The position numbers were made by a program, and so were the translations under genes. A model generated the notes under the pieces. It saw only the letters and a program-made list of their open reading frames with translations. It made no database searches and had not been told where the DNA came from. Shown piece after piece: positions 44,211 to 62,362 of a DNA stretch of 64,000 nucleotides. The number at the start of each line of letters is the position of its first letter. The stretch's first letter is position 1. This stretch comes from Allosphingosinicella vermicomposti (GTDB lineage Bacteria > Pseudomonadota > Alphaproteobacteria > Sphingomonadales > Sphingomonadaceae), in contig NZ_PXYJ01000001.1 of assembly GCF_003012815.1 (NCBI RefSeq), positions 620,001-684,000 of the forward strand, in the 5' to 3' direction.

Positions 44211-44774
44211 ATGGAGAGGACGCCCGGCGCTGTCGCGATCGAAACGGAGCGCCTTGTCCTCCGCAACTGGCGGGAGGGGGATGCCGACGCCTTTCACATT
44301 CATTGCAACACCGAAGCGGTGATGCGCTGGCTGGGCGGGGTGCAAAGCCGGGCCTTTTATGACGAGGTCGCGGCACGTCTTGCCCGCTGGCAGGAGGATC
44401 GCGGCTTCACCTTCTGGGTCGTCGAACGGCGGGAAGACGGCGCCTTCCTCGGTTTCTGCGGGCTGAAGATTGCCGACGGCGCGGGCAGCAGCGTGACGGG
44501 TGAGGTCGAAGCAGGCTGGCGGTTCCGGGAAGATGCCTGGGGCCAAGGCTATGCCAAGGAAGCCGCCACGGCCACCTTGAGTTTCGCCTTCGATACGCTT
44601 CATGCAGAGCGGGTGGTCGCCATCACCTTTCAGAAGAATGAAGCGAGCTGGGGGCTGATGAAGCGGCTGGGCATGCGGCGCCGGGCCGATCTCGATTACG
44701 ACGATCCCCGCTTCGGCCCCGATCTCAACCCCACGATCATCTACGAAATCGGCAGGAACGAATGGACGGCGTGA
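44211..44774 (+). CDS. GNAT-family N-acetyltransferase (RimJ/RimL type)
   Basis: 187 residues; the ATG at 44211 has GGAGG 7 bp upstream. The fold is recognisable from IETERLVLRNWREGDADAF at the N-terminus, then FTFWVVERREDGAFLGFCGL, the acetyl-CoA region EAGWRFREDAWGQGYAKEAATATLSFAF and NEASWGLMKRLGMRRR. It probably acetylates an N-terminus or a small amine; specificity cannot be told. It overlaps the next gene by 13 bp. Confidence 0.88.
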   Translation: MERTPGAVAIETERLVLRNWREGDADAFHIHCNTEAVMRWLGGVQSRAFYDEVAARLARWQEDRGFTFWVVERREDGAFLGFCGLKIADGAGSSVTGEVEAGWRFREDAWGQGYAKEAATATLSFAFDTLHAERVVAITFQKNEASWGLMKRLGMRRRADLDYDDPRFGPDLNPTIIYEIGRNEWTA

Positions 44775-45313
44775 CGATCATTCCCTTCGGCGGCAAAACG
44801 CCGGTGATCCATCCTACGGCCTTCGTCGCGCCGGGCGCGCGGATTATCGGCGATGTGGAGATCGGGCCGGAGGCGTCGATCTGGTACAATGTGGTGATCC
44901 GCGCCGATGTGAACCGCATCCGGATCGGCGCGCGCACCAATGTGCAGGATGGCACGATCATCCATTGCGATTCGCCAAAGCCCGGTCTGCCGGAGGGCAA
45001 TCCCACGATCATCGGCGATGATGTGCTGATCGGCCATATGGCGATGGTCCATGGCTGCACGCTTCACGATCGTGCTTTCGTGGGATTGGGATCGATCGTC
45101 ATGGACGGCTGCACGGTCGAAAGCGGCGGCATGCTGGCGGCGGGCGCGATGCTGACGCCCGGCAAGACGATACCCGCGCGGCAGCTCTGGGCGGGGCGCC
45201 CGGCCCGGCAGCTACGCGAAATTCCGCACGAGGGGCTGGCGGCGCAGCAGGCGGGCGTCGCGCACTATGTGGAGCTCGCCAAGGCTCATGCCCAGGCGAT
45301 CAGGCGCCGCTAA
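44762..45313 (+). CDS. Gamma-carbonic anhydrase family protein
   Basis: 183 residues with a left-handed beta-helix made of hexapeptide repeats (ARIIGDVEIGPEASIWYNVVIRADV ...). Metal-ligand histidines are visible in GTIIHCDSP and DVLIGHMAMVHGC. Members are carbonic anhydrases or related acyltransferase-like proteins (YrdA, PaaY, CaiE). Convergent 3' overlap of 14 bp with the following minus-strand gene. Confidence 0.9.
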   Translation: MDGVTIIPFGGKTPVIHPTAFVAPGARIIGDVEIGPEASIWYNVVIRADVNRIRIGARTNVQDGTIIHCDSPKPGLPEGNPTIIGDDVLIGHMAMVHGCTLHDRAFVGLGSIVMDGCTVESGGMLAAGAMLTPGKTIPARQLWAGRPARQLREIPHEGLAAQQAGVAHYVELAKAHAQAIRRR

Positions 45314-45806
45314 GCGCGCCCGTCAGCCGTTCGATTTCCGCTTTCTGTGCGTCCGCGAGCGCCCGCGCGGTTTCGAGCGCCGCCATCAACGCCTCATAAT
45401 CATCCGGGTTGGTCGGGCGGCTGGCGCGCTCAATCGCGATTCGATCCAGCTCCGTCAGTGCTGTCGTCGTCAGGCTCCGCGCGGCTTCGAGCCTCGACAC
45501 CGATTGCTGCGCGACCGTCCAGCTTTCGCTGCCGCTCGCACCGGCCTTTGCCACGGCGGCGCGCGCTGCGGGCGCTTCAGCAGCGAAGGCACCCTGTCCC
45601 GCCTCAGCCTCGGCGCGCAATTGGGCAATCCGCGCGGCGAGCGCGGGTTCGGCGGGGGCGGGCGGGGGAGGGGGCACGGGCTGGCCTGCCCCTTCGCTTT
45701 CTACCGCGCGGGGGGCGAGTGACGGGAAGTCGCCTGGCTTGGCGCAGCCGGAAAGCGTGAGAGCGGCGATGGCGGCGCTAAGCGCGGCAACAGGGCGATG
45801 GATCAT
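45300..45806 (-). CDS. Hypothetical lipoprotein with coiled-coil region
   Basis: 168 residues. Lipoprotein signal (AALSAAIAALTLSGC, lipobox LSGC). A Pro-rich stretch (PPPPPAPAEP) leads into an Ala/Glu/Arg-rich helical domain ending AQKAEIERLTGALSGA that should form a coiled coil. No family is recognised. It is transcribed toward the carbonic anhydrase gene. Confidence 0.65.
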   Translation of the reverse strand: MIHRPVAALSAAIAALTLSGCAKPGDFPSLAPRAVESEGAGQPVPPPPPAPAEPALAARIAQLRAEAEAGQGAFAAEAPAARAAVAKAGASGSESWTVAQQSVSRLEAARSLTTTALTELDRIAIERASRPTNPDDYEALMAALETARALADAQKAEIERLTGALSGA

Positions 45807-45887
45807 GGCTTTTTACTAAAGCCGCGCGCTTTTATCAGCAACGGGGTTGCGCCCCTCAAATCTTCGCCCTATGGCCCCTCTCACCGC

Positions 45888-45964
45888 GCGCCCGTAGCTC
45901 AGCTGGATAGAGCACCAGACTACGAATCTGGGGGTCAGAGGTTCGAATCCTTTCGGGCGCGCCA
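45888..45964 (+). tRNA. tRNA-Arg (ACG)
   Basis: 77 nt starting GCGCCCGTAGCTCAGCTGG with acceptor stem GCGCCCG/CGGGCGC, anticodon loop CTACGAA (anticodon ACG), T-arm GGTTCGAATCC and an encoded CCA. ACG is read after modification to ICG by TadA. A mobile element begins 6 bp after its last base. Confidence 0.95.
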
Positions 45965-45970
45965 TTTTCC
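45963..45970. repeat. Left copy of 8-bp target-site duplication
   Basis: CATTTTCC, overlapping the last two bases (CA) of the tRNA-Arg gene. An identical copy is at 51479-51486 on the other side of the element. Confidence 0.75.
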
Positions 45971-45996
45971 CGGTATTATGGCGCAAACGCACCAAG
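45971..45996 (+). repeat. Left terminal inverted repeat of the transposon
   Basis: 26 bp; first 16 bp CGGTATTATGGCGCAA perfectly matched by the right end, then AC in place of CA, then GCACCAAG matched again. Confidence 0.85.
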
Positions 45997-45999
45997 TCC

Positions 46000-48222
46000 T
46001 TAAGCGGGCATGGTTATCGGCCCCGCCTCACTGCTCCGCATCATCATGTCGTAGTGTGCCTTGTGGTCGGTCTTCTCAAAGACATGCTTGAAGACATCTA
46101 GGTAGCGCTCGACCACGCCCTCATCGACCGAGACGTAGAGATCGTCGTGCGCGCTGTGCGATCCATCATTCACCCACGAGAAGAGCGACGCGCAGACCTG
46201 CTGATCCTTACCCTCAAATCGAGCGATGATGTCGTCAGTGTCCACGCTCCCGAGAATCTTGAAGTAGTTCTCGACGATTCTCCGCAAGGTGTTCTGGATG
46301 GTCAAACTGGACCTGTTGGGGTTGCGGACTTCTTCCCAAAGCAGCTCATAGGAGGTCTTGATGGGGTTGGTGTTGAAGCTCGTCACCTCTGACTGTCCTT
46401 GCGATTTCCGGACGATCCAAAAGGTCTCATGAGCCCGACATTCGACACCTCGCTTGGAGTCGAACGACACCTCCTTATGGAAGTAGATGTTGTGAGTGAG
46501 GACGAACACCTGCTTGATTTGCCCGCTGTTCTCGCACGCTTCCTTAAGGACCCGCTTGATGAGCGCACTGACAATAAAGAGAACGTCGCTGTCGAGGCTG
46601 GATACGGGATCATCGAACACTACCACGCGCTCGGCGCTCATGCCGAACTCAGAGGTGCTGCCGCGTAGGAGGTGGTAGAAGTAGAGGAAAGTGACGAAGC
46701 CTCGCTCGCCCTCGCTGAGCGTGTCAGTGGCATTTTCACCATCGTCCCGAACGATCTCGTAGAGGTGATTGCGTTCACCGGTGGTCCTGAGCCTAAAGCC
46801 CGTAAAGCCGAAGGACGAAAGCAGTGCATTGATCCCATCCACTGTTGGCTGGACGCTCGTTATGCTCTTTTCGAGGGTGCGAAGTTCGCCTTTGGCGGTA
46901 TCTAGGTCCTGCCTCCTGCTTGTGATCTGCGAGGTGAGTGACTGAATCGCGCTCTCCACGCCGTTTTTTGCGGTCGTATAGGCCGTAAGCAACGCGTCGT
47001 TCTCGTGGAGGAGGTACTTCCAGATTTCGTCGATCAGCTTGGAGCGTTCGGTCGCAAGATTATCAACCAGCGCGTTGTGCGTCGCGATCACTGCGTTGGC
47101 GGTGTCGATCTGACCAACGAGCGCAGCAACCGCCCCACCGATCGGCTCCAAAGTCACTGGCGTGCTGGGCTCCCTTTTCTTGGCCGCGATAAGGCGCTTG
47201 TTCGACTCCAGTCGAGTGACAAGCCGATCAATGTCGGCCCGGAGACGCGTTGCGTCGATATGCCGGCTGTCCAGTGAAACGATCGCTTCTAGGCTTTCTA
47301 TGAGAGTAGACGCGACCGAGCCGTAAGACTGCTCGATGCGCTCGATCTGGCGGGTGTCGGCAAGGAAGGTTTCGTCAAAATAGGCGTTCAGCCGCTCCGC
47401 GAGATCACTTTCGATAGCCTGCTGACAGAACGGGCACTGCTCCGCTCCATCAAGATAGGCCAACCCTTGCCTCACCCAATCGCTATTTCCAAGGCGGGTG
47501 ATAAGCGCGGCAACATCGACATCCTCCTTCCCGAGGACTTTCTTTGCTAGGACGGGCTCGACTTCCGCCTCGATCAATGCGGTGGCATCAATATTCTGAA
47601 TTGCGGCATAACGCTCCATGCCCTGCTCAAAAAGGCTGGAAGCCCGCTCCTTTAACGTGTTGATGTCCTCCAGCGCCGCGCCATTTTGGGCAAGCTCCTG
47701 TAGCACTCGATCGCAGAACCGCGACTGCGAGTTCCTGAGACCCGAAAAGGCATCTTTGAAATGGGCGTCGTGCTTCCCTTTGATCTTTGTCCAGCAGTCG
47801 GCTTCCAACTTTTCGCGCAGCGCCTTCTTCTCGGCCCGTTTGCCAGTGGACTGATCCGGAAGACCCAACGTGTTCTCTAGCTGGTTGATTGTATCCTCAG
47901 CCTTCTTCACATCAGCCTTAGCTCGGTCGATCCTTTCCAGCGTGTCTTTCTCGGCTTCGCCGAGCGTGAAAATTCCGCGAAGTTGCGGAGCGAAATTGCG
48001 AGCGACGAAGTCGCGGTTATAGACCAGCCGCTCAAGCGGCTTCCCGTTTACCCAACTGAGGCTGCACGTTGGATGCCCATCGGGATCGTCAACCACACGT
48101 GAGATTGTAGTCTTGCCAGTCCCGTTCGTGCCGAAAATAAAATTGATAGCCTTGAGGCCATCAAGGCGCGCACCTGCTGTCGTATAGCTCGCTGTGCTAG
48201 CAACTTTGATTTCTGTAAGCAC
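46000..48222 (-). CDS. ABC-type ATPase with zinc-hook CxxC and putative anticodon-nuclease domain (RloC/PrrC-like)
   Basis: 740 residues, intact. Walker A FGTNGTGKTT at 30-39; long helical/coiled-coil arms at ~95-450 interrupted by CPFC (Cys263/Cys266), which could dimerise as a zinc hook; ABC signature LSEGE at 502-506; Walker B RVVVFDDPVSSLD at 532-544; H-loop FVLTHNIYFHKE. After the ATPase core (from ~590) is a C-terminal domain with R647-x3-E651 and H689 (VNDGSHSAHDD). PrrC's catalytic triad has the same R-x3-E...H order, and RloC is described as combining this with a CxxC hook at a similar size. The predicted role is tRNA cleavage on phage-induced DNA damage. An alternative is a generic AAA_13/SMC-like defence ATPase without nuclease activity. 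Stop codon 29 bp from the element's left end. Confidence 0.65.
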   Translation of the reverse strand: MLTEIKVASTASYTTAGARLDGLKAINFIFGTNGTGKTTISRVVDDPDGHPTCSLSWVNGKPLERLVYNRDFVARNFAPQLRGIFTLGEAEKDTLERIDRAKADVKKAEDTINQLENTLGLPDQSTGKRAEKKALREKLEADCWTKIKGKHDAHFKDAFSGLRNSQSRFCDRVLQELAQNGAALEDINTLKERASSLFEQGMERYAAIQNIDATALIEAEVEPVLAKKVLGKEDVDVAALITRLGNSDWVRQGLAYLDGAEQCPFCQQAIESDLAERLNAYFDETFLADTRQIERIEQSYGSVASTLIESLEAIVSLDSRHIDATRLRADIDRLVTRLESNKRLIAAKKREPSTPVTLEPIGGAVAALVGQIDTANAVIATHNALVDNLATERSKLIDEIWKYLLHENDALLTAYTTAKNGVESAIQSLTSQITSRRQDLDTAKGELRTLEKSITSVQPTVDGINALLSSFGFTGFRLRTTGERNHLYEIVRDDGENATDTLSEGERGFVTFLYFYHLLRGSTSEFGMSAERVVVFDDPVSSLDSDVLFIVSALIKRVLKEACENSGQIKQVFVLTHNIYFHKEVSFDSKRGVECRAHETFWIVRKSQGQSEVTSFNTNPIKTSYELLWEEVRNPNRSSLTIQNTLRRIVENYFKILGSVDTDDIIARFEGKDQQVCASLFSWVNDGSHSAHDDLYVSVDEGVVERYLDVFKHVFEKTDHKAHYDMMMRSSEAGPITMPA

Positions 48223-48424
48223 CTTAGCCCCCAGACCCGTGCGCCTGATTAAGTCATGTTGCTAAGCCATTAGCAGCATACCCGTTCTCTGACGAATCTG
48301 AGAATTGAGCGCTCTTGTCTATGACACGCGCCTAAACCGTTTCAGCCTTACTCATCCATTTCGGACACTGGCGTGATAGGAACCCGGAAGTTAGAGTGCC
48401 CTGCTAAACCTATAGGGGCTCAGA

Positions 48425-48730
48425 ATGTCTCGAAGAGAATCGGAAAGACTGTCGGTCATAGACGTATTTTATCCGGACCATGATACTGTGATCCCACCCC
48501 GCCATGCGGACTCCGAAGGGGTAGGCTACAGCGCCTGCGACCTACGCTGCGGCCAAGATGGCGAACTCCTCCTCCGAAACTTCTCCATACAGGAGGCGCA
48601 ACACTTCTTCCGGATGGAGAACAAGCGCGTAGTCATCAAGTGCCCTGAGTGCGGCGGCTACAATCTCCTCGCGGCGGCGGTCGAGAAAAAGTCGGATGGC
48701 AGCATCGGCACTCTCCCCGGCGGGGAGTGA
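48425..48730 (+). CDS. Possible small zinc-ribbon-like protein (opposite-strand rival to 48542-48808)
   Basis: 101 codons with AGGGG about 7 bp before the ATG. Four cysteines are arranged as SACDLRCG and IKCPECGG, a zinc-ribbon-like pattern, and third codon positions in the second half are strongly G/C. It overlaps the minus-strand frame at 48542-48808 by 189 bp, and normally only one of the two would be a gene. I cannot settle which. Confidence 0.35.
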   Translation: MSRRESERLSVIDVFYPDHDTVIPPRHADSEGVGYSACDLRCGQDGELLLRNFSIQEAQHFFRMENKRVVIKCPECGGYNLLAAAVEKKSDGSIGTLPGGE

Positions 48731-48808
48731 CGATATAAATGTAGCGTTACTGACTGCCTCACGCGCTATCCGTTGTAGGGCCAACAACGGCACCTTCCGA
48801 TCCGCCAT
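48542..48808 (-). CDS. Possible small helical protein of the transposon
   Basis: 88 codons with AAAGGA about 8 bp before the ATG at 48808. The predicted protein is helical and acidic at its end (PEEVLRLLYGEVSEEEFAILAAA) with no known domain. It points the same way as the RloC-like gene, 319 bp upstream of its start, so it could be a cotranscribed partner. It competes with the plus-strand frame at 48425-48730. Confidence 0.4.
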   Translation of the reverse strand: MADRKVPLLALQRIAREAVSNATFISSLPAGESADAAIRLFLDRRREEIVAAALRALDDYALVLHPEEVLRLLYGEVSEEEFAILAAA

Positions 48809-48969
48809 GGTCGGTTCCTTTGTGTATGCTGATTGAAGCTGATCAAGGTCCGGCGCAAATCAATTTACAGAACCTCACAAGCGATGCCTATGAGGTTTAA
48901 CAAAAAACGCCTCCCTTGTCAAGGGCCTTGCGCTTAGCGTCATCCTCGTCCAGTCTACTCTCGCCTCAC

Positions 48970-49135
48970 AACGGCTTAGTCACCGGCGTGGGGTGTGCAT
49001 TCGCGCACTGAACACGGGTCCGCTCATGTCGGGCGGCCCGCCAAATACAATACCCTTCGGGGCAATAAGCGGGGCGTGCTTACCGTGTTCGCGCGTGACT
49101 AACCGTCCCGGCACCAGCCGGGCGAACGCGGGAAT
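48970..49135 (+). promoter_or_regulatory. Possible structured leader before the exported passenger gene
   Basis: The interval 48809-49135 has no supported gene. Its right part is GC-rich and has short inverted arms, such as GGGCGGCCCGCC, CCTTCGGGG and CCCGGC-ACCA-GCCGGG (about 49108-49123), the last within 15 bp of the ATG at 49136 where it could mask or expose the ribosome site. This reading is tentative; nothing here matches a riboswitch I know. Confidence 0.3.
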
Positions 49136-49619
49136 ATGTCTATGAAAATAATGAAGCGGGTTTTCGCCGGTGCCCTCCTATTAGGCAGCGGGATCGCCCT
49201 CGCGCAAACTGTTGAAGGCATGGCTGCCTCAGCCAAGAAGGTGTTAGCAGCCCGTTTGGTGGAGCCATCCAGCCTCCAGCTTCGGAATATCCATACCAAG
49301 CAGGTAGCGGTCGGCGGTTCCTTGCAGATGATCTTGTGCGGGGAATACAACGCCAAAAACCGCATGGGCGGCTACAATGGGTTCAAGGCTTTCGCGTATG
49401 ATCCGACTACTTACAAAAGCTGTCGTGACGCTTTCGATGGGCGGCCGAAAGGATCTCGAAATAGGCTACTATAGCGAGGATGGGAGTGGCGACTTCGATA
49501 GTAGCGACGACCCTGCGGCTGTACTGAAAGCCGGCGTTTCATCGGAGCGTCTGAATGCAATCTCAGATCGCGCTTTCAAAGCTGCCTCAGAAACGGTGGC
49601 TCACTGCGCTGCGGCCTAA
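49136..49619 (+). pseudogene. Frameshifted small exported protein
   Basis: The first frame (49136-49474) encodes a signal peptide (MKRVFAGALLLGSGIALAQ) and about 70 mature residues, then turns into an unlikely C-terminus after FAYDPTTYK. The next frame carries a natural continuation (AVVTLSMGGRKDLEIGYYSEDG ... ASETVAHCAAA, to 49619). One extra A in the AAAA run at 49415-49418 explains the switch. Removing it gives a protein of about 160 residues. It may be a real mutation, a slippery site or a sequencing error. Function unknown. Confidence 0.55.
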
Positions 49620-49819
49620 TCTGCCTCTATAACGCATTGGACGCGCGATGTGGCAATCAGCACACCAGCGAGAACTCCATCGCCGTCCGGCTGCGTCAGC
49701 CGCCCTTCTACGAACCGTTGGCACGACATCATCTGGCTCAGGTCGTTGATCGACGTTGCGGCGACCTCAACTTCTACAGGTTGATTGGAGCCGATAAGGT
49801 GGAAACGAAAGGTTGCCAT
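49616..49819 (-). CDS. Small protein coupled to the transposase gene
   Basis: 66-67 residues (MATFRFHLIGSNQPVEVEVAA ... VQCVIEAD). Its ATG at 49819 overlaps the transposase stop as TGATG, so it would be translated by coupling. The start is beta-rich, and no domain is recognised. A longer frame starting at 49855 exists but would overlap the transposase end. It ends convergently with the exported passenger gene. Confidence 0.6.
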   Translation of the reverse strand: MATFRFHLIGSNQPVEVEVAATSINDLSQMMSCQRFVEGRLTQPDGDGVLAGVLIATSRVQCVIEAD

Positions 49820-50792
49820 CACGCGGCCCTTCGCCTCTGCCAATACCCACTCCACTTTCGGGACACGGGATGATGCGTCGCGGCGAAGAGTAGAGCGTCG
49901 AAGTTCTCCTTGTTATCGTATCGACGCCGGTCTTCGCGCCAAGACATTTCGTTTGCGTATTCGGCTATGTGGGGACCGGCGATGTGATGATAGGTTCCCA
50001 TCTCGGCACGCCGCAGGCGAGCGAAGTAAGATTCAGCCCAGTTGGTACATTTATCACCATCCGAATAGAGCTCGCTGTGATTGACCTTATGTAAATCATA
50101 GCGTGATGCCAGACGGTTCCAGTGTGTCGCATCGTCCGTGTAGACTGCGCTCCCTCGTTCGATAACTTCATACGCTATTCGTGCAGCATCACTTTCCGAC
50201 ATGATGAAGGGCCGGCTGCGTCCGTGCCGCTCCCTCATGATCACTACGCATTGTCGCTTGCCTGTTCGATGGGGAAGACGCCGGCGATCGACCCGACTGG
50301 GGCGATTGTTTTTAGGTCGGGCATGACCTCCAAAATACCCCCGTCGATCTCCACCTTTCCGCGAAGAGGGTTCTCCTGCTGAACCGATAGCACTTCGCGG
50401 AGCTTGTGTAGGCGGACGAAGGCGGTCTTGTAACTGACCTCAAGCTCGTGGCTGAGGCGGATGGCACTGATGCCCTTTAGCGCATTGATGAAGTGGGCGA
50501 CTAAGAGGAGCAGATCGCGGAAGGGGAGCTTACGGCTCGCGAAGTTGGTGCGTGATGTAGCTGAAAATTGTCGGCGGCAGGCGGCGGCGGCACACTTCCA
50601 CTTCTTGCGGGTAGTGATTGCGTAAACCTCCCGATGGCCGCACCACGGGCAGAACGGCGCTCCACCGTTTTCGGAAAAGCGAATGGCTACGAACTCGGCA
50701 AATGCCTCCTCGTCAGACAAGCGATGGATGCGCTTAGTACTAAGCGCCCTCGCTTCGGCCGAGAGTAGGAAATGCTGCGACTTTGCCTCCAT
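49819..50792 (-). pseudogene. IS1595-family transposase, frameshifted
   Basis: The first part (50792 down) has the family's start (SQHFLLSAEARALSTKRIHRL), a zinc-ribbon (CPWCGHREVYAI ... CAAAACRRQFSATS), a helix-turn-helix region (LPFRDLLLLVAHFINALKGISA) and the first catalytic Asp in KVEIDGG. The frame then goes astray. The neighbouring frame supplies the natural continuation: GYFGGHARPKNNRPSRVDRR, KRQCVVIMRERHG, YTDDATHW (second Asp), VNHSELYSDGDKCTNWAESYFARLRRAE (Asn-type third position) and WREDRRRYDNKE. The switch is at the GGGGG run read at 50338-50342, where one G is missing. Either the transposase is dead, or it is made by frameshifting, or the base is a sequencing error. Confidence 0.85.
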
Positions 50793-50938
50793 TGCATGAG
50801 TTGCAGCGGAGTAAAGATGCAGATTATCTAACTAAATCAACACTTTTATTTTCGGACATAGGTTTTGGCAGATATGCAAAATCCGTATGGTTAACGCTCC
50901 AGTGTTTCTGGACATACCTTTTTAGACATGGATGATAT

Positions 50939-51420
50939 TTAGCGAATCACCCGCCATTCTTTGGCGAAACTGCCGCGTGATTCGACCAGATCACCTTCAT
51001 GTGATTTGAAATATCCACCTACGGAATTGGTGAGTTTTCTACGCGCAACGAGGTCTTCCGGATCGTGCCCGATCTGGTCGAGCATGATAGAAGCAATTTC
51101 AAGAGGCCGATCCAGCCACCATTTTCGCGAAGAACGGTTAATGCCCGAAGGCCAATCTCACCAGACTTGAAAAGACCTCTCCACTTCCTTGGCGGACGGG
51201 GCTTAAGGTAAGTTGGTTGCTGCCAATCAGGGTAATCGCGCTTGATCAGCTTCTTGGCGCACGCCACGAGGTCTTCAAGCTCTCGGACTTGATGGTAGAG
51301 CGTCGGCAGGCGATCCGCTGCCGTCTGAATGCTCCGCAATTCCTTGCGAGTAGCGTCAAGCTCTCCCTGCAAAACGCAGAGTTTCTCCTCTAGCCCCTTT
51401 CTAAGGTTCGAATTCCCCAT
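50939..51420 (-). pseudogene. Frameshifted coiled-coil passenger protein
   Basis: From the ATG at 51420 the frame encodes a coiled coil (EEKLCVLQGELDATRKELRSI) and a basic middle part, then after ALTVLRENGGWI reads into unlikely sequence ending at 51019. The adjacent frame continues sensibly: PLEIASIMLDQIGHDPEDLV, ARRKLTNSVGGYFKSHEGD and FAKEWRVIR, stopping at 50939. One base is missing near 51103-51115. Restored, it would be about 160 residues with a coiled-coil N-terminus and a helix-turn-helix-like C-terminus. It begins 33 bp from the right terminal repeat. Confidence 0.6.
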
Positions 51421-51452
51421 ACCCGCTACATAGGGCGTCAGGTGGCATCATG

Positions 51453-51478
51453 CTTGGTGCTGTTGCGCCATAATACCG
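51453..51478 (-). repeat. Right terminal inverted repeat of the transposon
   Basis: CTTGGTGC, TG, TTGCGCCATAATACCG: the inverted counterpart of the left end with two mismatches in 26 bp. Confidence 0.85.
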
Positions 51479-51486
51479 CATTTTCC
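51479..51486. repeat. Right copy of 8-bp target-site duplication
   Basis: CATTTTCC, identical to 45963-45970. It is followed by CACCAGCTTG and the end of gcd. Confidence 0.75.
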
Positions 51487-51501
51487 CACCAGCTTGAAAA
51501 A

Positions 51502-53976
51502 TCATCGTTGCGGCAGCGCGTAGGCGATGACTGCGTCGCCTACGGGCGTTTCCATGAAGTGATGGCCGCCCGCCATGATGACCACATATTGGCGTCCGCC
51601 TGCCTCATAGGTGACCGGGGTTGCCTGGCCGCCTGCAGGGAGCACGTCTTGCCACAGGGTCTTGCCGGTATTGACGTCGATCGCGCGGATGAGATTGTCG
51701 GTGGTGGCGGCGATGAACATGAGACCGCCTGCCGTCACGACGCCGCCGCCATTGTTCGGCGTGCCGATGTCGAAGGGAATACCGGTCGGGATGTTGAACG
51801 GGCCGTTGCGACGGGCCGAGCCGAACGGGCGATCCCAGATGGTCTTGCCGGTCATCATATCGATTGCCCGGATGCCGCCATAAGGCGGCTCCTTGCAGAG
51901 GAGGTTGGTGAAGGGCAGCCGCCAGCCCGCATTGACGTCGATCGCATAGGGCGTTCCGGCCTGGGGATCGCCTTTGCCTTCCGGCTTTCCAGTCAGCGAA
52001 CCGCCACGCGCCGCAATTTGGGCACGCGTTTCCCAACCCTTCGCATCGGCCTCCGCCCGCGGGACGAGCCGGTTGTAGTTCGGCATGTCGTTATAATTGG
52101 CGATGATGACGCCGCGCTGCGGATCGATCGCGATACCGCCCCAATCCGAACCGCCATTATAGCCTGGATATTGGATCCAGCGGCGGTCCGCGGTCGGCGG
52201 CGTGTAGAAGCCGTCATAATGGGCACGGCGGAACTGGATGCGGCAGATCATCTGGTCGATCGGCGACATGCCCCACATGTCGCGTTCCTGAAGATCCGCC
52301 TTACGCAGCGTATGGTACAGGGATACTGGCTGCGTCGGCGAACGCTGCGCAGGCTCCACCCCGCCGCCCGGCACCGTCATATTCGCGACGGGCGTCAGCG
52401 GGCGTCCGGTGCGCCGGTCCAGAATATAGATGTCGCCCTGCTTGCTCGGCAGGATAAGCGCGGGCACGGCGCCATTGCCGGCGGGGAGATCGACGAGCGT
52501 GGCTTGCGAGCCGAGGTCATAATCCCAAACATCGTTGCGGACGGTCTGGAAGGACCAGGCGGGCCGCCCGGTCGCAACGTCGATCGCGACGAGCGATGTC
52601 GAGAAGCGCTTTTCCTGTGGGCTGCGTGTGCCGCTCCAATAATCGACGGCGCTGTTGCCCATGGGCAGGTAGACGAGGCCGAGCGCTTCGTCGCCCGACG
52701 CGGTCGTCCACATATTGGGCGTGCCGCGTGCATATTCCTGGCCTTCGGGCGGCATGCCTGTCCATTGCGGATTGACCATGTCCCAGGCCCAGCGGAGCGC
52801 GCCCGTCGTTACGTCATAGCCGCGGATGACGCCGGACGGTGCGTTGCGCTGCTGACCGTCGAGTACCTGATGGCCGACGACGATCACGCCGCGCACGATC
52901 GTGGGCGCGGAGGTGACCGAAACCATGCCGGGGTCGACCTGGCCGAGGCCCACCTTCAGATCGACCTGTCCATTCGTGCCGAAATCCCGGCAGGGCTGCC
53001 CGGTTGCGGCATCGACGGCGATGAGGCGCGCATCGAGCGTCCCTTCGATGATCCGGGTGCGGCAGGCCGTGGTGGTTGGAGACGGAGAAGCCAGCGGCGG
53101 CGCCGGTCGCGGTGCGGTTGCCGGAGCGGCGGTCGCGCTCGCATCGTGATACGCGACGCCCCGGCAGGCGGCGGTATAGGGAATCCAGGCGTCGGGCACG
53201 CCCGGATCGAAGCGCCATTTTTGCTGGCCGCTCGCCGCATCCAAAGCGATCAGTATGTTCTTGGCCGAACAGAGATAGACGGTGTCGCCAATCTTCAGCG
53301 GCGTGGTTTCCGCGCCATATTTATTGTTCTTCATGTCGGTGGGAAGGTCGCCGGTATGATAAACCCAGGCGCGCTCCAGCCGTGCAACATTGCCCGGCGT
53401 GATTTGGGCGAGCGTCGAGTAACGCTGGGCGCCATAGGTGCCGCCATAAGCGGTCCAGTCGCTTCCCGACGCCTGTGTTGCCACGCTCAAGGGAACCACG
53501 CCGCGCGCGGGAGGTATGCCGCCGATCACCGCGTCGGGCGCCATGCGCCCGGCTATCACGCCGCCGCCGATCAATATGACCAGTGCGGCGAGGAAGGCGG
53601 CGCCTGCGCCCTTCCAGTTGACCCGCGCGCTGAGCAGGGGTGTGACCAGAATAACGAGCAAGAGAAGGACCGCCGGGCCGACTACGCGCGGCACGAGCGC
53701 CCAGGGGTTCGTCCCGCTTTCCCAAAATGCCCAGATGACGGTCGCGATGAATATCACGCCGTAGAGCAAGGCGCCTGCCAGCCGCCGTGTCATGATGAGC
53801 CAGCCCGACAGGACGAGCCCCGCGCCCGCCGCCGCATAATAAGGCGAACCGCCGAGCGCGAGGAGCCAGATGCCGCCGATCAGCAAGACCGCGCCGAGGA
53901 GGGCGAGCAGGATGCCGACGGCCGTCGCGGCCCAGGATCGGCGGCGAATAAGGGGCGGGGCGGTCGATGCCATCAT
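51502..53976 (-). CDS. gcd: Membrane-bound PQQ-dependent glucose dehydrogenase
   Basis: About 824 residues. Five N-terminal transmembrane helices (residues ~15-150) and then an eight-bladed PQQ beta-propeller beginning WTAYGGTYGAQRYSTLAQITP, with the typical ACRGVAYHD, WAWDMVNPQWTGMPPEGQEY, GNSAVDYWSGTRSPQEKRFS and GAMFIAATTDN-like (GGLMFIAATTDNLIRA) blocks. It oxidises glucose to gluconolactone in the periplasm and passes electrons to ubiquinone. Start ambiguous among ATGs at 53985, 53976 and 53973. It is divergent from ctaG with 83 bp between. No pqq genes are in the window. Confidence 0.93.
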   Translation of the reverse strand: MMASTAPPLIRRRSWAATAVGILLALLGAVLLIGGIWLLALGGSPYYAAAGAGLVLSGWLIMTRRLAGALLYGVIFIATVIWAFWESGTNPWALVPRVVGPAVLLLLVILVTPLLSARVNWKGAGAAFLAALVILIGGGVIAGRMAPDAVIGGIPPARGVVPLSVATQASGSDWTAYGGTYGAQRYSTLAQITPGNVARLERAWVYHTGDLPTDMKNNKYGAETTPLKIGDTVYLCSAKNILIALDAASGQQKWRFDPGVPDAWIPYTAACRGVAYHDASATAAPATAPRPAPPLASPSPTTTACRTRIIEGTLDARLIAVDAATGQPCRDFGTNGQVDLKVGLGQVDPGMVSVTSAPTIVRGVIVVGHQVLDGQQRNAPSGVIRGYDVTTGALRWAWDMVNPQWTGMPPEGQEYARGTPNMWTTASGDEALGLVYLPMGNSAVDYWSGTRSPQEKRFSTSLVAIDVATGRPAWSFQTVRNDVWDYDLGSQATLVDLPAGNGAVPALILPSKQGDIYILDRRTGRPLTPVANMTVPGGGVEPAQRSPTQPVSLYHTLRKADLQERDMWGMSPIDQMICRIQFRRAHYDGFYTPPTADRRWIQYPGYNGGSDWGGIAIDPQRGVIIANYNDMPNYNRLVPRAEADAKGWETRAQIAARGGSLTGKPEGKGDPQAGTPYAIDVNAGWRLPFTNLLCKEPPYGGIRAIDMMTGKTIWDRPFGSARRNGPFNIPTGIPFDIGTPNNGGGVVTAGGLMFIAATTDNLIRAIDVNTGKTLWQDVLPAGGQATPVTYEAGGRQYVVIMAGGHHFMETPVGDAVIAYALPQR

Positions 53977-54059
53977 GCTCTCCATCTCGCGGATGCGAAC
54001 GGAACCAGCCGCCGGGCGGTTGGTTCCGGTTCGTAACCGTTCCAATCCGCAAGGCGCCA

Positions 54060-54788
54060 ATGATCGAGCCTTTCTTCCCCTATTGCGGACCTGCGCCTTT
54101 GCCTTCCGAGCTTCTGTCGCGCTGGAATTTCGACCCTTTTTTGATGGGTGGATTTGGGTTGGCGGTCTTGGGCTATGCCCGATTCCGATATGCAGTCGAT
54201 AGACAAGGTCTCTGCTTTGCGGCGGCGATCTTTCTGTGCGTCCTGCTCTTCATCTCTCCGCTCTGTGCGCTGAGTTCGGCATTGTTTTCAGCCCGGGTCG
54301 CGCATCACATTCTGCTGTCGGCGGCGGTTGCGCCGTTGCTCGCCTTCGCCTGGCCCGCGCCGACGGGGTATAGCCGGATCGCAGCGTGGACCATCGCTCA
54401 GGCCGTGTTGTTCTGGGCGTGGCACGCACCGCCGCTTTATGCCTGGGCGCTGTCCAGCGATCTTGCCTATTGGCTGATGCAGGCGTCGATCCTGTTGCCG
54501 TCGATCTTCTTCTGGCGGGCATTGCGGGCGGCATCCGGCCCGGCGGGCGTGGTGGCGCTTTTGGCGACGATGGTGCTGATGGGATTGCTCGGCGCGCTCA
54601 TCACGTTCAGCGGAAATCCGCTTTATGCGCCTCATGCGCTGACCACACTGCCATGGGGCTATACGCAGATGGACGACCAGCAGCTTGCCGGGCTCATTAT
54701 GTGGGCGCCGTCCGCCGGCTTCTATCTTGGCGCGGCGTTGCTGCTGCTTGGCCGTTGGTTGTCGCGCGAAGAGGCGGCGCGCGCATGA
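54060..54788 (+). CDS. ctaG: Cytochrome c oxidase assembly protein, CtaG (caa3) family
   Basis: 242 residues from the ATG at 54060. Seven transmembrane helices are suggested; family features include WNFDPFLMGGFGL, FISPLCALSSALFSARVAHHILLSAAVAPLLAF and FWAWHAPPLYAWAL. Bacillus-type CtaG is needed for copper insertion in caa3 oxidase. It overlaps the next gene by 4 bp and heads the oxidase cluster. Confidence 0.9.
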   Translation: MIEPFFPYCGPAPLPSELLSRWNFDPFLMGGFGLAVLGYARFRYAVDRQGLCFAAAIFLCVLLFISPLCALSSALFSARVAHHILLSAAVAPLLAFAWPAPTGYSRIAAWTIAQAVLFWAWHAPPLYAWALSSDLAYWLMQASILLPSIFFWRALRAASGPAGVVALLATMVLMGLLGALITFSGNPLYAPHALTTLPWGYTQMDDQQLAGLIMWAPSAGFYLGAALLLLGRWLSREEAARA

Positions 54789-55459
54789 TTGGGGCGCGGC
54801 TCCGCGAATGGGCGCGGCGGCATAGCGACAAGGGGCGCTATACGCCGGTCGGGATCATCTTCCACTGGGTGATGGCGGCGCTCGTCATCCTGCAGCTCGC
54901 GCTCGGCTGGTACACGACGCGCATGTATGCGGGCGGCGATCGGCTGACCGCTTATCAATGGCATAGCGACCTTGGCCTTCTCATCCTCTTCCTCGCCTTC
55001 TTGCGCTTTGCATGGCGGATGATGGTGCCGGGGCCGATCAACGACGCGGATAAAGGCGGGTGGCAGACCAATATCGCTTATGCGACGCATGTGGTCTTCT
55101 ATCTCTGCTTCTTCGGCCTGCCGATTACGGGATGGATGATGTGGTCGGCTCTCGGCGACGGGAGGCCACTTTATGTCGCGGGATTGGTGCCGTGGCCGCA
55201 AATGCCGTTCGGTGGGCTTGACCCGCAATGGCAATGGGCGATCCTCGATTGGGCGGAGGATCTGCACCAGATGTTCATCCTCATCCTCATCATCCTCATT
55301 CCGCTCCACGTGGGCGCGGCGCTGAAACATCATTGGTGGGATCGGGACGACGTTCTGGAAGGGATGCTTCCGGACGTGAAGGACGCGGACGATCACCGGG
55401 AAGGCTTGACGCATAAGCCGAAACGGCCTCGATCTCCGCGGGTGACAGGCGCTGGCTGA
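54785..55459 (+). CDS. Cytochrome b561-family di-haem protein
   Basis: 224 residues with four transmembrane helices. Haem-ligand histidines fit the family: PVGIIFHWVMAALVI, YQWHSDLGLLILF, YATHVVFYLCFFGLPITGW and IPLHVGAALKHHWWDRDDVLEGML. After the last helix the protein carries a basic tail of ~25 residues (HKPKRPRSPRVTG) whose coding DNA overlaps the convergent cytochrome c gene. It may pass quinol electrons to the cytochromes c nearby. Confidence 0.88.
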   Translation: MIGARLREWARRHSDKGRYTPVGIIFHWVMAALVILQLALGWYTTRMYAGGDRLTAYQWHSDLGLLILFLAFLRFAWRMMVPGPINDADKGGWQTNIAYATHVVFYLCFFGLPITGWMMWSALGDGRPLYVAGLVPWPQMPFGGLDPQWQWAILDWAEDLHQMFILILIILIPLHVGAALKHHWWDRDDVLEGMLPDVKDADDHREGLTHKPKRPRSPRVTGAG

Positions 55460-56051
55460 TAACGAGCATGAGGTTGCCCGGATCGCCGCGCCTTTCCCCT
55501 TGTCGCCACTGGCGCAGCTGATCGGCGAGGTAGGATGCGGGCTGTCCGGCGAGCGGCGGATTGCCTTCGCCTTGTCCTTCGCCATTCGCGCCGTGACAAG
55601 CGGCGCAGGCGGTGAGTCCGCGCGACGAATCCCCTTCGATATAAAGACGCGATGGCGCGGTTGCCTTCTGCTGGATCGCAGGCGCGGGGAGGGCGGCATA
55701 ATAAGCGGCGACATCCTGCCGCTGCTGCTGGGAGAGGCGGCGCGCGAGGTGTTGCATGTCCGGATTGCGGCGTAGGCCCGCTGCGTAAAATTCCATCTGG
55801 CGGGACAGGTAACCAGCCCCAAACCCTGCAATGCGCGGCACGCCCGCGCCATTGCCTTCGCCTTTCAGGCCGTGGCAGGCGATGCACGCATTTTGCGGGC
55901 CCGCATCGCCGCCGGACAAGGCAATGAGCTCGCCACTCGCCGAATAGGGATCGTGCGCGCGGGTTTCGGGCGGATTACAGGCCGCTGCCCCGAACGCGGC
56001 GCTGGCGAGGATCAAAGCGCGCACCGGCCAAGGTTTCAAGCTTTTGAGCAC
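55296..56051 (-). CDS. Di-haem cytochrome c (c4-like)
   Basis: 251 residues. The start is the GTG at 56051 with GGAGG 9 bp upstream; the longer open frame to 56777 is antisense to other genes. Lipoprotein-like leader (LILASAAFGAAAC). Two haem-binding sites, CIACHG and CAACHG, each followed by a distal Met region (NPDMQHLA, GNLMLV). Its Pro/Arg-rich C-terminal tail of ~32 residues overlaps the end of the cytochrome b561 gene over 164 bp. It runs against the rest of the oxidase cluster. Confidence 0.85.
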   Translation of the reverse strand: MLKSLKPWPVRALILASAAFGAAACNPPETRAHDPYSASGELIALSGGDAGPQNACIACHGLKGEGNGAGVPRIAGFGAGYLSRQMEFYAAGLRRNPDMQHLARRLSQQQRQDVAAYYAALPAPAIQQKATAPSRLYIEGDSSRGLTACAACHGANGEGQGEGNPPLAGQPASYLADQLRQWRQGERRGDPGNLMLVISQRLSPAEIEAVSAYASSLPGDRPRPSRPEASLPERRPDPTNDVSAPRPRGAE

Positions 56052-56099
56052 GAGCGAGGAACCTCCGCGCCGCCCCAACGGTTCCGGGGGTGTAACTGA

Positions 56100-56486
56100 A
56101 TGCGGGCTGCCGTGGCGAAGCGAATGATTTCCATGACGATCTGCTCTCTTGCCTTGGCCGCGTGCAAGGCTCCGCCCGAAGAGCGGCATCAGATGCCCGG
56201 AGCGGACCCGATGCGCGGAAAGGCCGTGATCGAGAAAGCGGCCTGTGCGGCCTGCCACGCCATCCCCGGCATCAAGTGGCCTCAAGGCGAACTTGGCCCC
56301 TCGCTCGACGGCTTTGCCGATCAGGGGATGATCGCGGGCCGCTTCTCCAACCGTCCGGATCTGCTGGTCCGCTACATTCGCAACGCGCCGTCCATGACGC
56401 CCGGCACCGCCATGCCCGCCATGCCGATCAGCGAGGGCGAAGCGCGCGATGCAGCCGCTTATCTTTACACGCTTCATGACCGTTGA
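56100..56486 (+). CDS. Mono-haem cytochrome c lipoprotein
   Basis: 128 residues. Lipoprotein signal (TICSLALAAC) and one haem site CAACHAIPG with GTAMPAMPISEGEARDAAAYLYTL as the Met-ligand and C-terminal helix. Probably an electron donor to the oxidase encoded next; its end overlaps the coxB start by 11 bp. Confidence 0.88.
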   Translation: MRAAVAKRMISMTICSLALAACKAPPEERHQMPGADPMRGKAVIEKAACAACHAIPGIKWPQGELGPSLDGFADQGMIAGRFSNRPDLLVRYIRNAPSMTPGTAMPAMPISEGEARDAAAYLYTLHDR

Positions 56487-57429
56487 AGGCCTAGCCGGAT
56501 GGCCGCCGCCGGTGTTCGACCCGGCGGGCCCTTTCGCGGGATCGATCACGACGCTCGCCTGGGTGCTGACGGGCATGGCGGTCGCGGTGCTCGCCATTGT
56601 CCTACTCGCCATCTGGACGGCGCTGAAAGGGCGCCCCGCGCTGCGCAAGCGGCTGGGCGGCGAGCGGATGATCTGGATCGGCGGCGTCGCCTTCCCCGTC
56701 GTGGTGCTCACCCTCCTCCTCATCTGGGGGCTTAGTCTTACCAGCGGCATATCGAAGCCGATCGCGGGCACGGACATGCGGATCCGCGTCAGCGGGGAAA
56801 TGTGGTGGTGGCGGGTGTCCTATCTCGACGGGCAGGGGCGCGAAATCCTGCGCGACGCCAACGAAATCCACATACCCGCCGGGCAGACCGTCGCGCTGGA
56901 ACTGACATCGGCGGACGTCATCCACAGCTTTTGGGTGCCGCGCCTGTCGGGCAAGCTCGACATGATCCCCGGCCGCACCAATGTGATGCGCATCCAGGCC
57001 GACAAACCGGGCGTCTATGGCGGGCAATGCGCCGAATATTGCGGCGGGCCCCACGCTTTGATGGGCTTCGTCGTCGTCGCTCATACGCCGGAGGATTTCG
57101 GGCGGTGGATGGCGTCCCGGCAAGCGCCGCCACCGGCACCCGCAACCAACGAAGCGCGGCGCGGCGCGGCTCTGTTCGCGTCGGCGGGATGTGCGGCCTG
57201 TCACGCGGTGGCCGGAACGTCCGCCAACGGCCTTGCGGGGCCGGACCTCTCTTATGTTGGCGCACGCCGCACTTTGGGCGCTGGCATCCTACCCAATAAT
57301 CGCGGCGCGATGATCGGATGGATCGGCAATAGCCAGGCGATCAAGCCCGCCAACCGTATGCCCGCCTACACCATGCTCCCGGCCGAGGATTTGAAGGCCA
57401 TCGCCGTCTATCTCGAGGGGCTGAAGTGA
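56476..57429 (+). CDS. coxB: Cytochrome c oxidase subunit II with fused cytochrome c domain
   Basis: 317 residues from the ATG at 56476. Two transmembrane helices (~26-52 and ~73-93), a CuA cupredoxin domain (GEMWWWRVSY, DVIHSFWVPRLSGKLDMIPG, GQCAEYCGGPHALMGF with both Cys, His and Met ligands), and a C-terminal haem-c domain (CAACHAVAGTSANG ... MPAYTMLPAEDL). This is the caa3-type arrangement. The stop overlaps the next start as GTGA. Confidence 0.95.
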   Translation: MTVEGLAGWPPPVFDPAGPFAGSITTLAWVLTGMAVAVLAIVLLAIWTALKGRPALRKRLGGERMIWIGGVAFPVVVLTLLLIWGLSLTSGISKPIAGTDMRIRVSGEMWWWRVSYLDGQGREILRDANEIHIPAGQTVALELTSADVIHSFWVPRLSGKLDMIPGRTNVMRIQADKPGVYGGQCAEYCGGPHALMGFVVVAHTPEDFGRWMASRQAPPPAPATNEARRGAALFASAGCAACHAVAGTSANGLAGPDLSYVGARRTLGAGILPNNRGAMIGWIGNSQAIKPANRMPAYTMLPAEDLKAIAVYLEGLK

Positions 57430-59966
57430 CGTCGGAAACCGGCTTCGACCCGAAGCTCTACGATCGTTTCCCGACGTCCGGCGCCCGCCCGCGCGGCGAG
57501 TTGGAGGAATTGGAGCGCATCTGGTGCGCGCCCAAGGGCTGGCAATATCTGACCGTCGTCAACAACAATTATGTCGGCATTTATTATGTCGGCGCGGCCT
57601 TTCTGTTCTTCCTGCTCGCCGGAATCCTCGCCCTCGTCATGCGGGTGCAACTCGCCGCGCCGCTGATGGGCGTGCTGCCGCAGGAAACCTACAATCAGTT
57701 CTTCACCATGCACGGCACGGTGATGATGTTCCTCTTCGCCGTGCCGATGGTGGAGGCGCTGGGCATCATGCTGCTGCCGCAAATGCTGTCGGCCCGCGAT
57801 CTGCCTTTTCCCCGCCTCTCGGCCTACGCCTTCTGGGCGTATCTGGTCGGCGGGCTCGCATTCTTCTCCTCGCTTTTCGTCGGCCTCGCGCCCAATGGCG
57901 GCTGGTTCATGTATCCGCCGCTCACCAGCACGGCCTATTCGCCGGGGATCAACACCGATTTCTGGCTGCTCGGCATCGGCTTCATCGAGATTTCCGCCAT
58001 TGCCGGGGCGATCGAGATCGTGGTGGGCGTGCTGCGCACCCGGGCGCCGGGCATGACGCTGGACAAGATGCCGATCTTCGCCTGGGCGATGCTCGTCTTC
58101 GCGATCATGATCATCATCGCCTTTCCGGCGGTGATCCTCGGCACATTGCTGCTGGAGTTTGAGCGGGCGTTCAACTGGCCGTTTTTCGATCCGACGCGGG
58201 GCGGCGATCCGCTCTTGTGGCAGCACCTCTTCTGGTTCTTCGGCCACCCGGAAGTCTACATCATCTTCCTGCCCGCAGCAGGTCTTGTCTCGATGATGGT
58301 CGCGATGGTCGCGCGCACCGATCTCGTCGGCTACCGCCTTGTCGTCCTCGCTTTGCTGGCTACCGGTTTCATCAGCTTCGGCGTCTGGGCCCATCATATG
58401 TTCACGACCGGGATGCCGACCCTTTCCGTCGGCTTCTTTTCGGCGGCGAGCATGGCGGTGAGCGTTCCGGCGGGCATCCAGGTTTTTGCCTGGATCGCGA
58501 CGCTGGCAGTTGGAAAGGTGCGCTACAATACGCTCGCTTTATTCATCATCGGCACGCTTATCATCTTCACGATGGGCGGCCTGACCGGCGTGATGGTCGC
58601 GCTCGTGCCCTTCGATTGGCAGGCGCATGACAGTTATTTCATCGTCGCCCACCTTCACTACGTGCTGATCGGCGGAATGGTCTTCCCGATGTTCGCGGCT
58701 TTTTATCATTGGGCGCCGATGGTGAGCCGCCGCGCGCTGTCCGAACGGCTCGGCAAATGGGTGTTCGGCCTGATGTTCGCAGGTATGCACATCGCCTTTC
58801 TGCCCATGCATCTGACCGGCATGATGGGGATGCCGCGCCGGGTTTATACCTATTTGCCGGATCGCGGCTGGGATCTGCCGAACCTTATCTCGACCGTCGG
58901 CGCTTTCGTGCTCGCGGCGGGTATCGCTCTGTTCGTGATCGACCTCATACGCAACGTCCGCCTCGCGCCGGGCGGCGGCAATGCGGGCAATATCTATGGC
59001 GCCGGCACGCTCGAATGGCTGCCGACCGAGCTTTATTCGACGCGTTCCATTCCAGTCGTGAAGAGCCGCCAGCCTTTGTGGGACGATCCCGATCTTTCGA
59101 AAGATGTGGAGGAGGGTCGCTATTTCTTGCCCGGCAGCGTGACGGGCAATCGCGAGACGATCGTCACCAGCCCGCTTATGGCCGAGCCGCAATATCTGCA
59201 GATCATGCCGGGGCCGTCCGTCTGGCCGCTTTTGTCGGCGGTGTTCACGGCGGGCTTCTTCCTGCTGCTGACCGTCCAGGCTTATGGGGCGGGGCTGGTG
59301 AGCGGCGTATTGGCGATCCTCGCGGTGCTGCGCTGGATGTGGGAAACCGACCGGCCGGTGAAGCAGCCGTTCGTCGATATTGGAGCCGGCATCAACGTGC
59401 CGACCTATGTCACCGGCACCAGCACCCATGGCTGGTGGGCGATGGTGGTGCTGATGATCGTCATCGGCATGATCTTCTTGATGACGGTCTTCTCCTACCT
59501 CTATCTTTACGGGCGGAGCACGCGGTTCTGGATCGATCCGCCGGACGCCGTCTCCCTCGCGCTGATCGTGGGTGGCGCGGCTCTGTCAGCGCTCCTCGCC
59601 GCTGGATCGCGGCGGGCGTTGCTGAAGGGCGATGGCCGCAAGCGCCTTGCCATCTGGCTACTTATCCTCGCCTCGATCGTCATCAGCGCCGTCACATTCA
59701 TCGATTATCGCAGCTGGCTGGCAGCGGGTCTCGATCCCGAAGCGAGCGGGCAGGGGGCGGTGATCCACGCCTTTATCGGCCTGCAGGCCTGCCTCAGCGG
59801 GATCGCGCTGCTGATGGCGGCGTTCGTCGCGGCGCGGGGCGCCCGGAACTTCATTCCCGTACCGCGCAGCAATGTGATCGATCTGCCCGCGATCTTCATT
59901 ATCTTCACCGCCGCATTGGGTGCCGCCGGTCCCGGCTTGGTCCGGCTGTTTCCCGGAACGCTGTGA
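57426..59966 (+). CDS. ctaD: Fused cytochrome c oxidase subunit I + III
   Basis: 846 residues from a GTG. Residues ~45-560 are subunit I with haem/copper ligands: TMHGTVMMFLF (haem a His), WQHLFWFFGHPEVYI (CuB His and the crosslinked Tyr context), WAHHMFTTG (CuB His pair) and FIVAHLHYVLIGG (haem His pair). From ~590 on, seven more helices resemble subunit III (GWWAMVVLMIVIGMIFLMTVFSYLYLYGRS). Fused CoxA-CoxC is known in caa3 enzymes such as that of Thermus. It ends where the next small gene begins (shared base). Confidence 0.95.
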   Translation: MTSETGFDPKLYDRFPTSGARPRGELEELERIWCAPKGWQYLTVVNNNYVGIYYVGAAFLFFLLAGILALVMRVQLAAPLMGVLPQETYNQFFTMHGTVMMFLFAVPMVEALGIMLLPQMLSARDLPFPRLSAYAFWAYLVGGLAFFSSLFVGLAPNGGWFMYPPLTSTAYSPGINTDFWLLGIGFIEISAIAGAIEIVVGVLRTRAPGMTLDKMPIFAWAMLVFAIMIIIAFPAVILGTLLLEFERAFNWPFFDPTRGGDPLLWQHLFWFFGHPEVYIIFLPAAGLVSMMVAMVARTDLVGYRLVVLALLATGFISFGVWAHHMFTTGMPTLSVGFFSAASMAVSVPAGIQVFAWIATLAVGKVRYNTLALFIIGTLIIFTMGGLTGVMVALVPFDWQAHDSYFIVAHLHYVLIGGMVFPMFAAFYHWAPMVSRRALSERLGKWVFGLMFAGMHIAFLPMHLTGMMGMPRRVYTYLPDRGWDLPNLISTVGAFVLAAGIALFVIDLIRNVRLAPGGGNAGNIYGAGTLEWLPTELYSTRSIPVVKSRQPLWDDPDLSKDVEEGRYFLPGSVTGNRETIVTSPLMAEPQYLQIMPGPSVWPLLSAVFTAGFFLLLTVQAYGAGLVSGVLAILAVLRWMWETDRPVKQPFVDIGAGINVPTYVTGTSTHGWWAMVVLMIVIGMIFLMTVFSYLYLYGRSTRFWIDPPDAVSLALIVGGAALSALLAAGSRRALLKGDGRKRLAIWLLILASIVISAVTFIDYRSWLAAGLDPEASGQGAVIHAFIGLQACLSGIALLMAAFVAARGARNFIPVPRSNVIDLPAIFIIFTAALGAAGPGLVRLFPGTL

Positions 59967-60244: not shown

Positions 60245-60293
60245 CGCGGTCCGCTCTGTCATAGGGCGCGGCGTATAGGAAAAGAGGGAAGAC

Positions 60294-61004: not shown

Positions 61005-61020
61005 TCCCTCACGCCTATCA

Positions 61021-61100: not shown

Positions 61101-61104
61101 GGTA

Positions 61105-62358: not shown

Positions 62359-62362
62359 GGCA

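Follow-up and report, generated by a model that had tools for sequence, protein, structure and literature searches.

What decides where a transposon inserts, and is the position of one such element at the very end of a tRNA gene a rule or a coincidence? The question is raised by a 64,000-nucleotide stretch of Allosphingosinicella vermicomposti (contig NZ_PXYJ01000001.1, positions 620,001 to 684,000; hereafter the window), in which an insertion sequence (IS) type element of 5508 bp, at 45971-51478, carries an IS1595-type transposase and a gene for a putative anticodon nuclease. We consider it quite likely that this is a cargo-carrying transposon of the IS1595 family, belonging to a clade that homes to tRNA 3' ends under the guidance of a small protein, orf133, encoded beside the transposase. 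More broadly, an exchangeable orf133 protein made of a helix and a winged helix probably sends the DDE transposase of these elements to the CCA ends of tRNA genes, to the Walker A or Walker B region of comM, or to a palindromic repeat, the elements serving as a vehicle for single defense or toxin-antitoxin modules in Alphaproteobacteria.

An earlier note on this DNA, made from its letters, had described 26-bp inverted ends, identical 8-bp flanks and an IS1595-type transposase between them, and all three are confirmed. The ends, which are the first-listed inverted repeat of 45700-51800, pair at 24 of 26 positions (92% complementary) with the outer 16 bp perfect, and exact 8-bp copies of CATTTTCC abut both of them, at 45963-45970 and 51479-51486. 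When end pairs plus an exact 8-bp repeat were sought around the transposase (score out of 20, floor 12/20), this pair reached 18/20 and the runner-up pairs 12/20, the floor. The tRNA-Arg(acg) gene occupies 45888-45964, and the duplication therefore begins at the final CA of its CCA tail. The two pieces of the transposase match PF12760 (Zn_ribbon_IS1595, 1.9e-10) and PF12762 (DDE_Tnp_IS1595, 1.5e-26); this pair of domains and the 8-bp target duplication are features of the IS1595 family. The G+C content is 54-57% in the five 1-kb segments lying fully within the element (46000-50999) versus 61-68% outside, so that the element lies about 9 points below its flanks. Read from the right end, the gene order is orf133, the transposase, orf79, small open reading frames (ORFs) and the gene for a 740-aa protein, as laid out here:

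45888..45964, + strand: tRNA-Arg(acg), the target, left whole, with its CCA encoded (ARAGORN, sequence)
45963..45970: target duplication, left copy CATTTTCC, the CA of the tRNA CCA plus 6 bp (sequence)
45971..45996, + strand: left inverted end (inverted-repeat search)
46000..48222, - strand: cargo gene for a 740-aa RloC-like ABC-ATPase with a CPFC motif and C-terminal R647/E651/H689 (AAA_13, PDC-S06, PrrC, alignment)
48425..48730, + strand: small putative ORF, 101 aa (ORF list; no Pfam match above the curated cut-off)
49136..49474, + strand: small putative ORF, 112 aa (ORF list; no Pfam match above the curated cut-off)
49616..49855, - strand: orf79, a small gene recurring directly downstream of the transposase in clade relatives (tblastn)
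49819..50792, - strand: IS1595-type transposase in two frame-broken pieces, about 50334-50792 and 49825-50340 (Pfam, profile)
50930..51420, - strand: orf133, candidate target selector, in two frame-broken pieces, 51094-51420 and 50930-51124 (profile, structure, covariation)
51453..51478, - strand: right inverted end (inverted-repeat search)
51479..51486: target duplication, right copy CATTTTCC (sequence)

A search for transposase relatives covered 396 genomes from the order, of which 108 gave a match at 1e-5, and 385 from the class, of which 37 did so at 1e-40. Other copies with the same kind of ends, for which the earlier note had suggested a search, do exist: 39 relatives (their stretches are numbered with an L) have inverted ends and exact 8-bp duplications, and make up a family of cargo-carrying IS1595 elements of 1.8 to 10.3 kb. 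Ten insertions, that of the window included, have an intact tRNA and both duplications in view. The register is fixed in 10/10: the duplicated 8 bp start at the CA of the tRNA CCA and take in the next 6 bp, which are often T-rich. Seven anticodons are represented, namely Arg(acg) in the window, Pro(cgg) in L180 and L292, Gln(ctg) in L189, L203 and L204, Gln(ttg) in L293, Arg(ccg) in L270, Trp(cca) in L301 and Ser(tga) in L290/L302. The elements lie in either orientation, and the fact that all ten duplications differ speaks for ten separate events. The sequence GTTCGAATCC stands at the same distance in all ten intact targets. By eye, the same register is also seen at tRNA 3'-end remnants, of ~18 nt in L181, which has both duplications, and of ~16 nt in L206, which shows it at one end while different sequence adjoins the other. 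An Rfam scan of these two stretches gave nothing. For L290 and L272/L301, duplications ending in TG were noted first, and tRNAs were then found at both far ends. Among elements whose orf133 is tRNA-type and for which one end or both could be placed, 13 of 14 sit at a tRNA 3' end, versus 0 of the 29 other-type elements scanned for a tRNA at the boundary (of 30; L285 left out). Chance adjacency was rejected, given 10/10 in one register. As far as these sequences tell, the tRNA position is a rule of the window's clade and not a coincidence.

Other members of the family have other targets. Ten elements lie inside one gene with Mg-chelatase (ChlI) domains, referred to here as comM. Six have hit its Walker A region, the other four its Walker B motif. 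The comM frame is the longest joined one across the junction in 7/10, and L195, L198 and L278, with another longest frame, were assigned to it by flank similarity and target sequence. L188, L194 and L200 lie inside GTCATTCC-type repeats. A common neighborhood, though perhaps not an identical insertion point, is seen for L183, L187 and L191. Most elements of the comM and repeat types (L182-L200 and others) carry a DUF6471 gene and a ~300-aa protein with a membrane-like start beside the transposase.

Which protein do these targets follow? An orf133-family protein was found in 43/43 elements examined, with a profile built from 30 sequences of the same set, and profile comparison places the tRNA-type and other-type proteins in one family (E 1.1e-17). 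A search of the 385 class genomes for more tRNA-type proteins gave matches in 4 genomes besides this one, each to part of the profile. A structure model of the L180 protein has a helix at residues 2-62 and then the order of helices and strands of a winged helix, with a mean predicted local distance difference test score (pLDDT) of 89. We compared trees for 29 elements, 28 of them bearing one of five target labels. The orf133 tree needs 4 target changes, the minimum possible, versus 12 on the transposase tree, and quick trees of 27 elements gave the same counts. With L289 counted as a one-off, a count as low arose in 0 of 200 label shuffles for orf133 and in 12 of 200 for the transposase. For the 25 elements also carrying DUF6471, the changes were 10 for DUF6471, 12 for the transposase and 4 for orf133. 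Because the target follows the orf133 tree, with 4 changes against 12 and 10, orf133 is a candidate modular target selector outside Tn7. DUF6471 was rejected as the chooser of targets: it needs 10 changes and was not found in the window, L180 or L181, all of which sit at tRNA ends.

It seems improbable that the transposase itself chooses the target, with orf133 otherwise employed, for instance in regulation or end binding, and linked to the target by history. Many IS transposases do show some target preference of their own, and transposase and orf133 agree in the window, L180 and L181, and again in L203, L204 and L206, so that there the two are indistinguishable. Elsewhere, however, near neighbors on the transposase tree have different targets (L189/L200, L195/L188, L192/L183), and this conflict, together with the threefold count of changes, disfavors the transposase as sole chooser. 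The clearest case is L189, which sits at tRNA-Gln and carries a tRNA-type orf133; its transposase shares 80% identity with the one of L200, a repeat-targeting element. L270, an internal-deletion derivative at tRNA-Arg, likewise combines a transposase remnant that is comM-group-like by eye with a tRNA-type orf133. Still less credible is that the elements favor open or terminator-like places between genes, or that harmful insertions were selected against, and that the tRNA sequence is not recognized at all: tRNA 3' ends are known as safe sites for mobile elements and the 6 bp after the CCA are often T-rich, but the register holds to the single base across differing 6-bp sequences and the scanned elements of other types have no tRNA at their boundaries.

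Several points weigh against orf133 as the selector at tRNA ends. L289 has a tRNA-type protein and yet sits, by eye, in a PIN/VapC-like gene. Proteins of the comM type are carried at other sites by L196, L207 and L208; these three, and elements without a shared target, are unlabeled, and the change counts refer to the 28 labeled elements only. Several inner branches of the orf133 tree are poorly supported. The model of the L180 protein has a predicted template modeling score (pTM) of 0.56, and the Foldseek matches are weak (best E 0.016, none at 0.001), the top ones being largely what we take to be winged-helix DNA-binding proteins by fold class. Finally, L291, for which no right end was found, lies at a tRNA-Met and departs from the register by one base when its located end is positioned as in the other elements.

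The register and the covariation are seen in the data, and behind them we infer binding and recruitment by orf133, which might proceed as follows. With its long helix and predicted winged helix, orf133 would bind the target DNA; in tRNA genes its site would probably be the conserved T-arm/acceptor region. Once bound, it would recruit the transposase, which would then cut 8 bp apart, starting from the CA of the CCA. Other types of orf133 would direct sister elements to the two comM sites and the GTCATTCC-type repeat. The tRNA would be rebuilt exactly and, because it stays whole, insertion should not harm the host, with many equivalent sites available.

The small genes of the window copy had been read in the earlier note as uncharacterised passengers. 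The 101- and 112-aa ORFs, putative as genes, have no match. Two of the small genes are recurrent parts of the element: orf133, probably central to it, and orf79, for which tblastn gives matches of 39-46% identity at the same place in L180, L181, L203, L204 and L206. The transposase frame is broken, with profile residues 1-152 and 151-323 falling in different frames, and it is intact in the relatives L180 and L181; orf133 is likewise frame-broken. Because both are broken, the window copy, which moved in the past, is probably now immobile. Broken transposase and orf133 genes beside an open nuclease gene would fit an element that lost its mobility once it had arrived and kept its cargo. Against this, sequencing errors could account for the frame breaks. 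The same genome has two further, more distant transposases of the IS1595 type (G000:C1:111494-112327 and 174453-175322).

The 740-aa cargo protein is an RloC-like ABC-ATPase and a probable anti-phage anticodon nuclease, in keeping with the passenger gene proposed earlier, and its gene is open. It matches AAA_13 (1.6e-182), PDC-S06 of PADLOC (944 bits) and, at residues 500-728, PrrC (4.5e-13). We aligned it with 33 of 80 relatives. Both cysteines of CPFC 263-266, a CxxC zinc-hook motif inside the ATPase insert, are invariant in 34/34 sequences, as are R647, E651 (+4) and H689 (+42), so that the protein has both the RloC triad and the hook. Passages of the paper on Geobacillus kaustophilus RloC give R692, E696 and H737 (+4, +45), hook cysteines C288 and C291, and a length range of 658-897 aa (PMC2610378), and a passage elsewhere places the RloC nuclease domain in the HEPN superfamily (PMC3710099). 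From these motifs, the ABC part would act as sensor and the C-terminal anticodon-nuclease domain would cut host tRNA, so that phage growth is stopped. The cargo might instead be another ABC-ATPase of the AAA_13 group, such as a DNA-acting or unrelated defense protein; a search by sequence found no relative of solved structure, and its best PADLOC label is a candidate family. This we regard as unlikely, since the R-x3-E with a downstream H keeps RloC-like spacing throughout the alignment and the PrrC profile matches at residues 500-728. The likeness to RloC thus extends to ABC motifs, hook, catalytic residues and size; the difference is that the gene, known here from sequence alone, is borne by an IS1595 transposon.

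The earlier note had also supposed that defense is moved by a single IS-type transposon. The nuclease gene is present in 1 of 26 genomes of the genus, namely this one, which agrees with such movement. Among 80 RloC-like loci of other species, surveyed with the window's own proteins as the only queries and with some stretches short, a transposase relative lies within the stretch in one (L061), with the nuclease gene outside that element, and so the arrangement in the window looks like a single capture and not the usual vehicle of this nuclease. RloC-like genes as a standard cargo of the family are not supported by this survey.

We looked for the empty site in 20 of 25 congener stretches. An unoccupied target, the tRNA followed by uninterrupted TTTTCC, is present at the syntenic tRNA-Arg in 2/20 (L210, L221), and the upstream neighbor of the tRNA in the window (44762-45313) is found close to it in 17/20. 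The junction predicted earlier, tRNA-Arg joined to gcd, was not found in full, and no congener showed gcd next to this tRNA; four of them (L032-L035) have gcd relatives in stretches with no tRNA, far from their tRNA-Arg matches. Since astB (window 61105-62466) lies downstream of tRNA-Arg in 9/20 congener loci, window 51502-61104, from gcd to ~60 kb beside the element, seems to have been inserted or rearranged specifically in this lineage. An uninterrupted ancestral locus holding the element's genes and lacking the terminal repeats was not seen.

The 39 relatives comprise 22 of the first 30 stretches, 10 and then 3 more (L292, L293, L290) of the next 20, and L270, L301, L308 and L309, the last two from the genome behind L061. 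Their typical ends are CGG(C/T)ATTA(T/G)GTAGCAAA or CGGTATTATGGCGCAAA. Exact duplications were not found in L198, L201, L202, L205, L206, L207, L208 and L209 of the first set, of which L198 and L207 match at 7/8 and L208 at 6/8, nor in L274, L277, L279, L283, L285, L288 and L291 of the second, and these 15 stretches were left out of the 39. No second end was found in L288 (contig end) or L303, both with a tRNA-type orf133. L285:7179-10484 has ends scoring 19/20 and flanking 8-mers that are mutual reverse complements (ACTTGCAT/ATGCAAGT), as if one flank were inverted. The 1.8-kb derivative L270:154-1947 lacks an open transposase gene but keeps perfect ends, with an exact duplication, at tRNA-Arg, and was perhaps mobilized in trans.

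Judged by domain matches, the family cargo includes restriction-modification and toxin-antitoxin-type genes. To the former belong a type I system (L290), McrC with a D12 methyltransferase (L292) and an LlaJI-type system (L289); L186 carries a cytosine methylase with Vsr, two HATPase proteins and Methyltransf_35. Further matches are SLFN_AlbA_2 (L203, L204), Fic (L188, L203), PemK (L278), NYN (L187), SocA/Panacea (L180, L185, L190, L276, and L207 with its inexact duplication), an IrrE-like peptidase (L281, L282) and a ParA-like ATPase (L184), and many other cargo ORFs had no match in the same domain scans. We contrasted with their flanks 71 cargo ORFs of at least 120 aa from 32 elements, after core genes had been removed by BLAST (75 of 146 dropped). 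Matches of the cargo ORFs fell in 81 PADLOC families, of which the 25 listed are methylase-type models with two ORFs each, and the flank ORFs (147 of 169) matched 3, a rough contrast that counts families and not distinct cargo ORFs. The commonest Pfam families of the flanks, among the best 25 of 89, are housekeeping. Two distant elements at tRNA ends encode uncharacterized cargo proteins that are very similar by eye (L180:11150-11953, 267 aa; L301:11642-12472, 276 aa), which points to an exchange of cargo.

How does this family compare with known systems? The ISNha5 group has CGGnnTT ends and a size of several kb; the window element has CGGTATT ends and cargo. Published passages cite ISNha5 as an IS1595 member with passenger genes, such elements being termed tIS (PMC11891212), and describe the features of the IS1595 family and its passenger-carrying tIS (PMC8101967). 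The family shares with ISNha5-type tIS the Zn-ribbon and DDE_Tnp_IS1595 transposase, the 8-bp duplications and the passenger genes, and is set apart from them, as described, by precise targeting of tRNA 3' ends and comM and by an exchangeable selector-like protein. Targeting of tRNA genes or comM by IS1595 elements, or a selector among them, is not described in the literature searched, and an earlier mention is possible. The casposon of A. boonei also integrates at a tRNA 3' end, in partial overlap with the gene (PMC6614799), but with a Cas1-type casposase in place of a DDE transposase. Similar in the way they work are the Tn7-like elements and Tsy, for which passages of PMC10293859 describe modular selectors, comM Walker B targeting and tRNA homing: in Tn6022, TnsF directs insertion to the Walker B region of comM, and a CRISPR-associated transposon homes near a tRNA gene. 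By analogy with TnsD/TniQ and TnsF, a separate DNA-binding protein would choose the target here too. The differences are that the selector would be a helix plus winged helix, and that the insertion overlaps the tRNA end in place of lying 30-33 nt downstream; TnsB, TnsC and TniQ were not among the Pfam matches of the 8 window proteins scanned. Choice of site by a DDE transposon through a separate selector is known chiefly from the relatives of Tn7, whereas here a compact IS-type element, a transposase plus one protein of ~160 residues, appears base-pair precise at many tRNA genes. If true, this would be a new integrase-free route of defense genes to tRNA sites and a small system for targeted DNA insertion.

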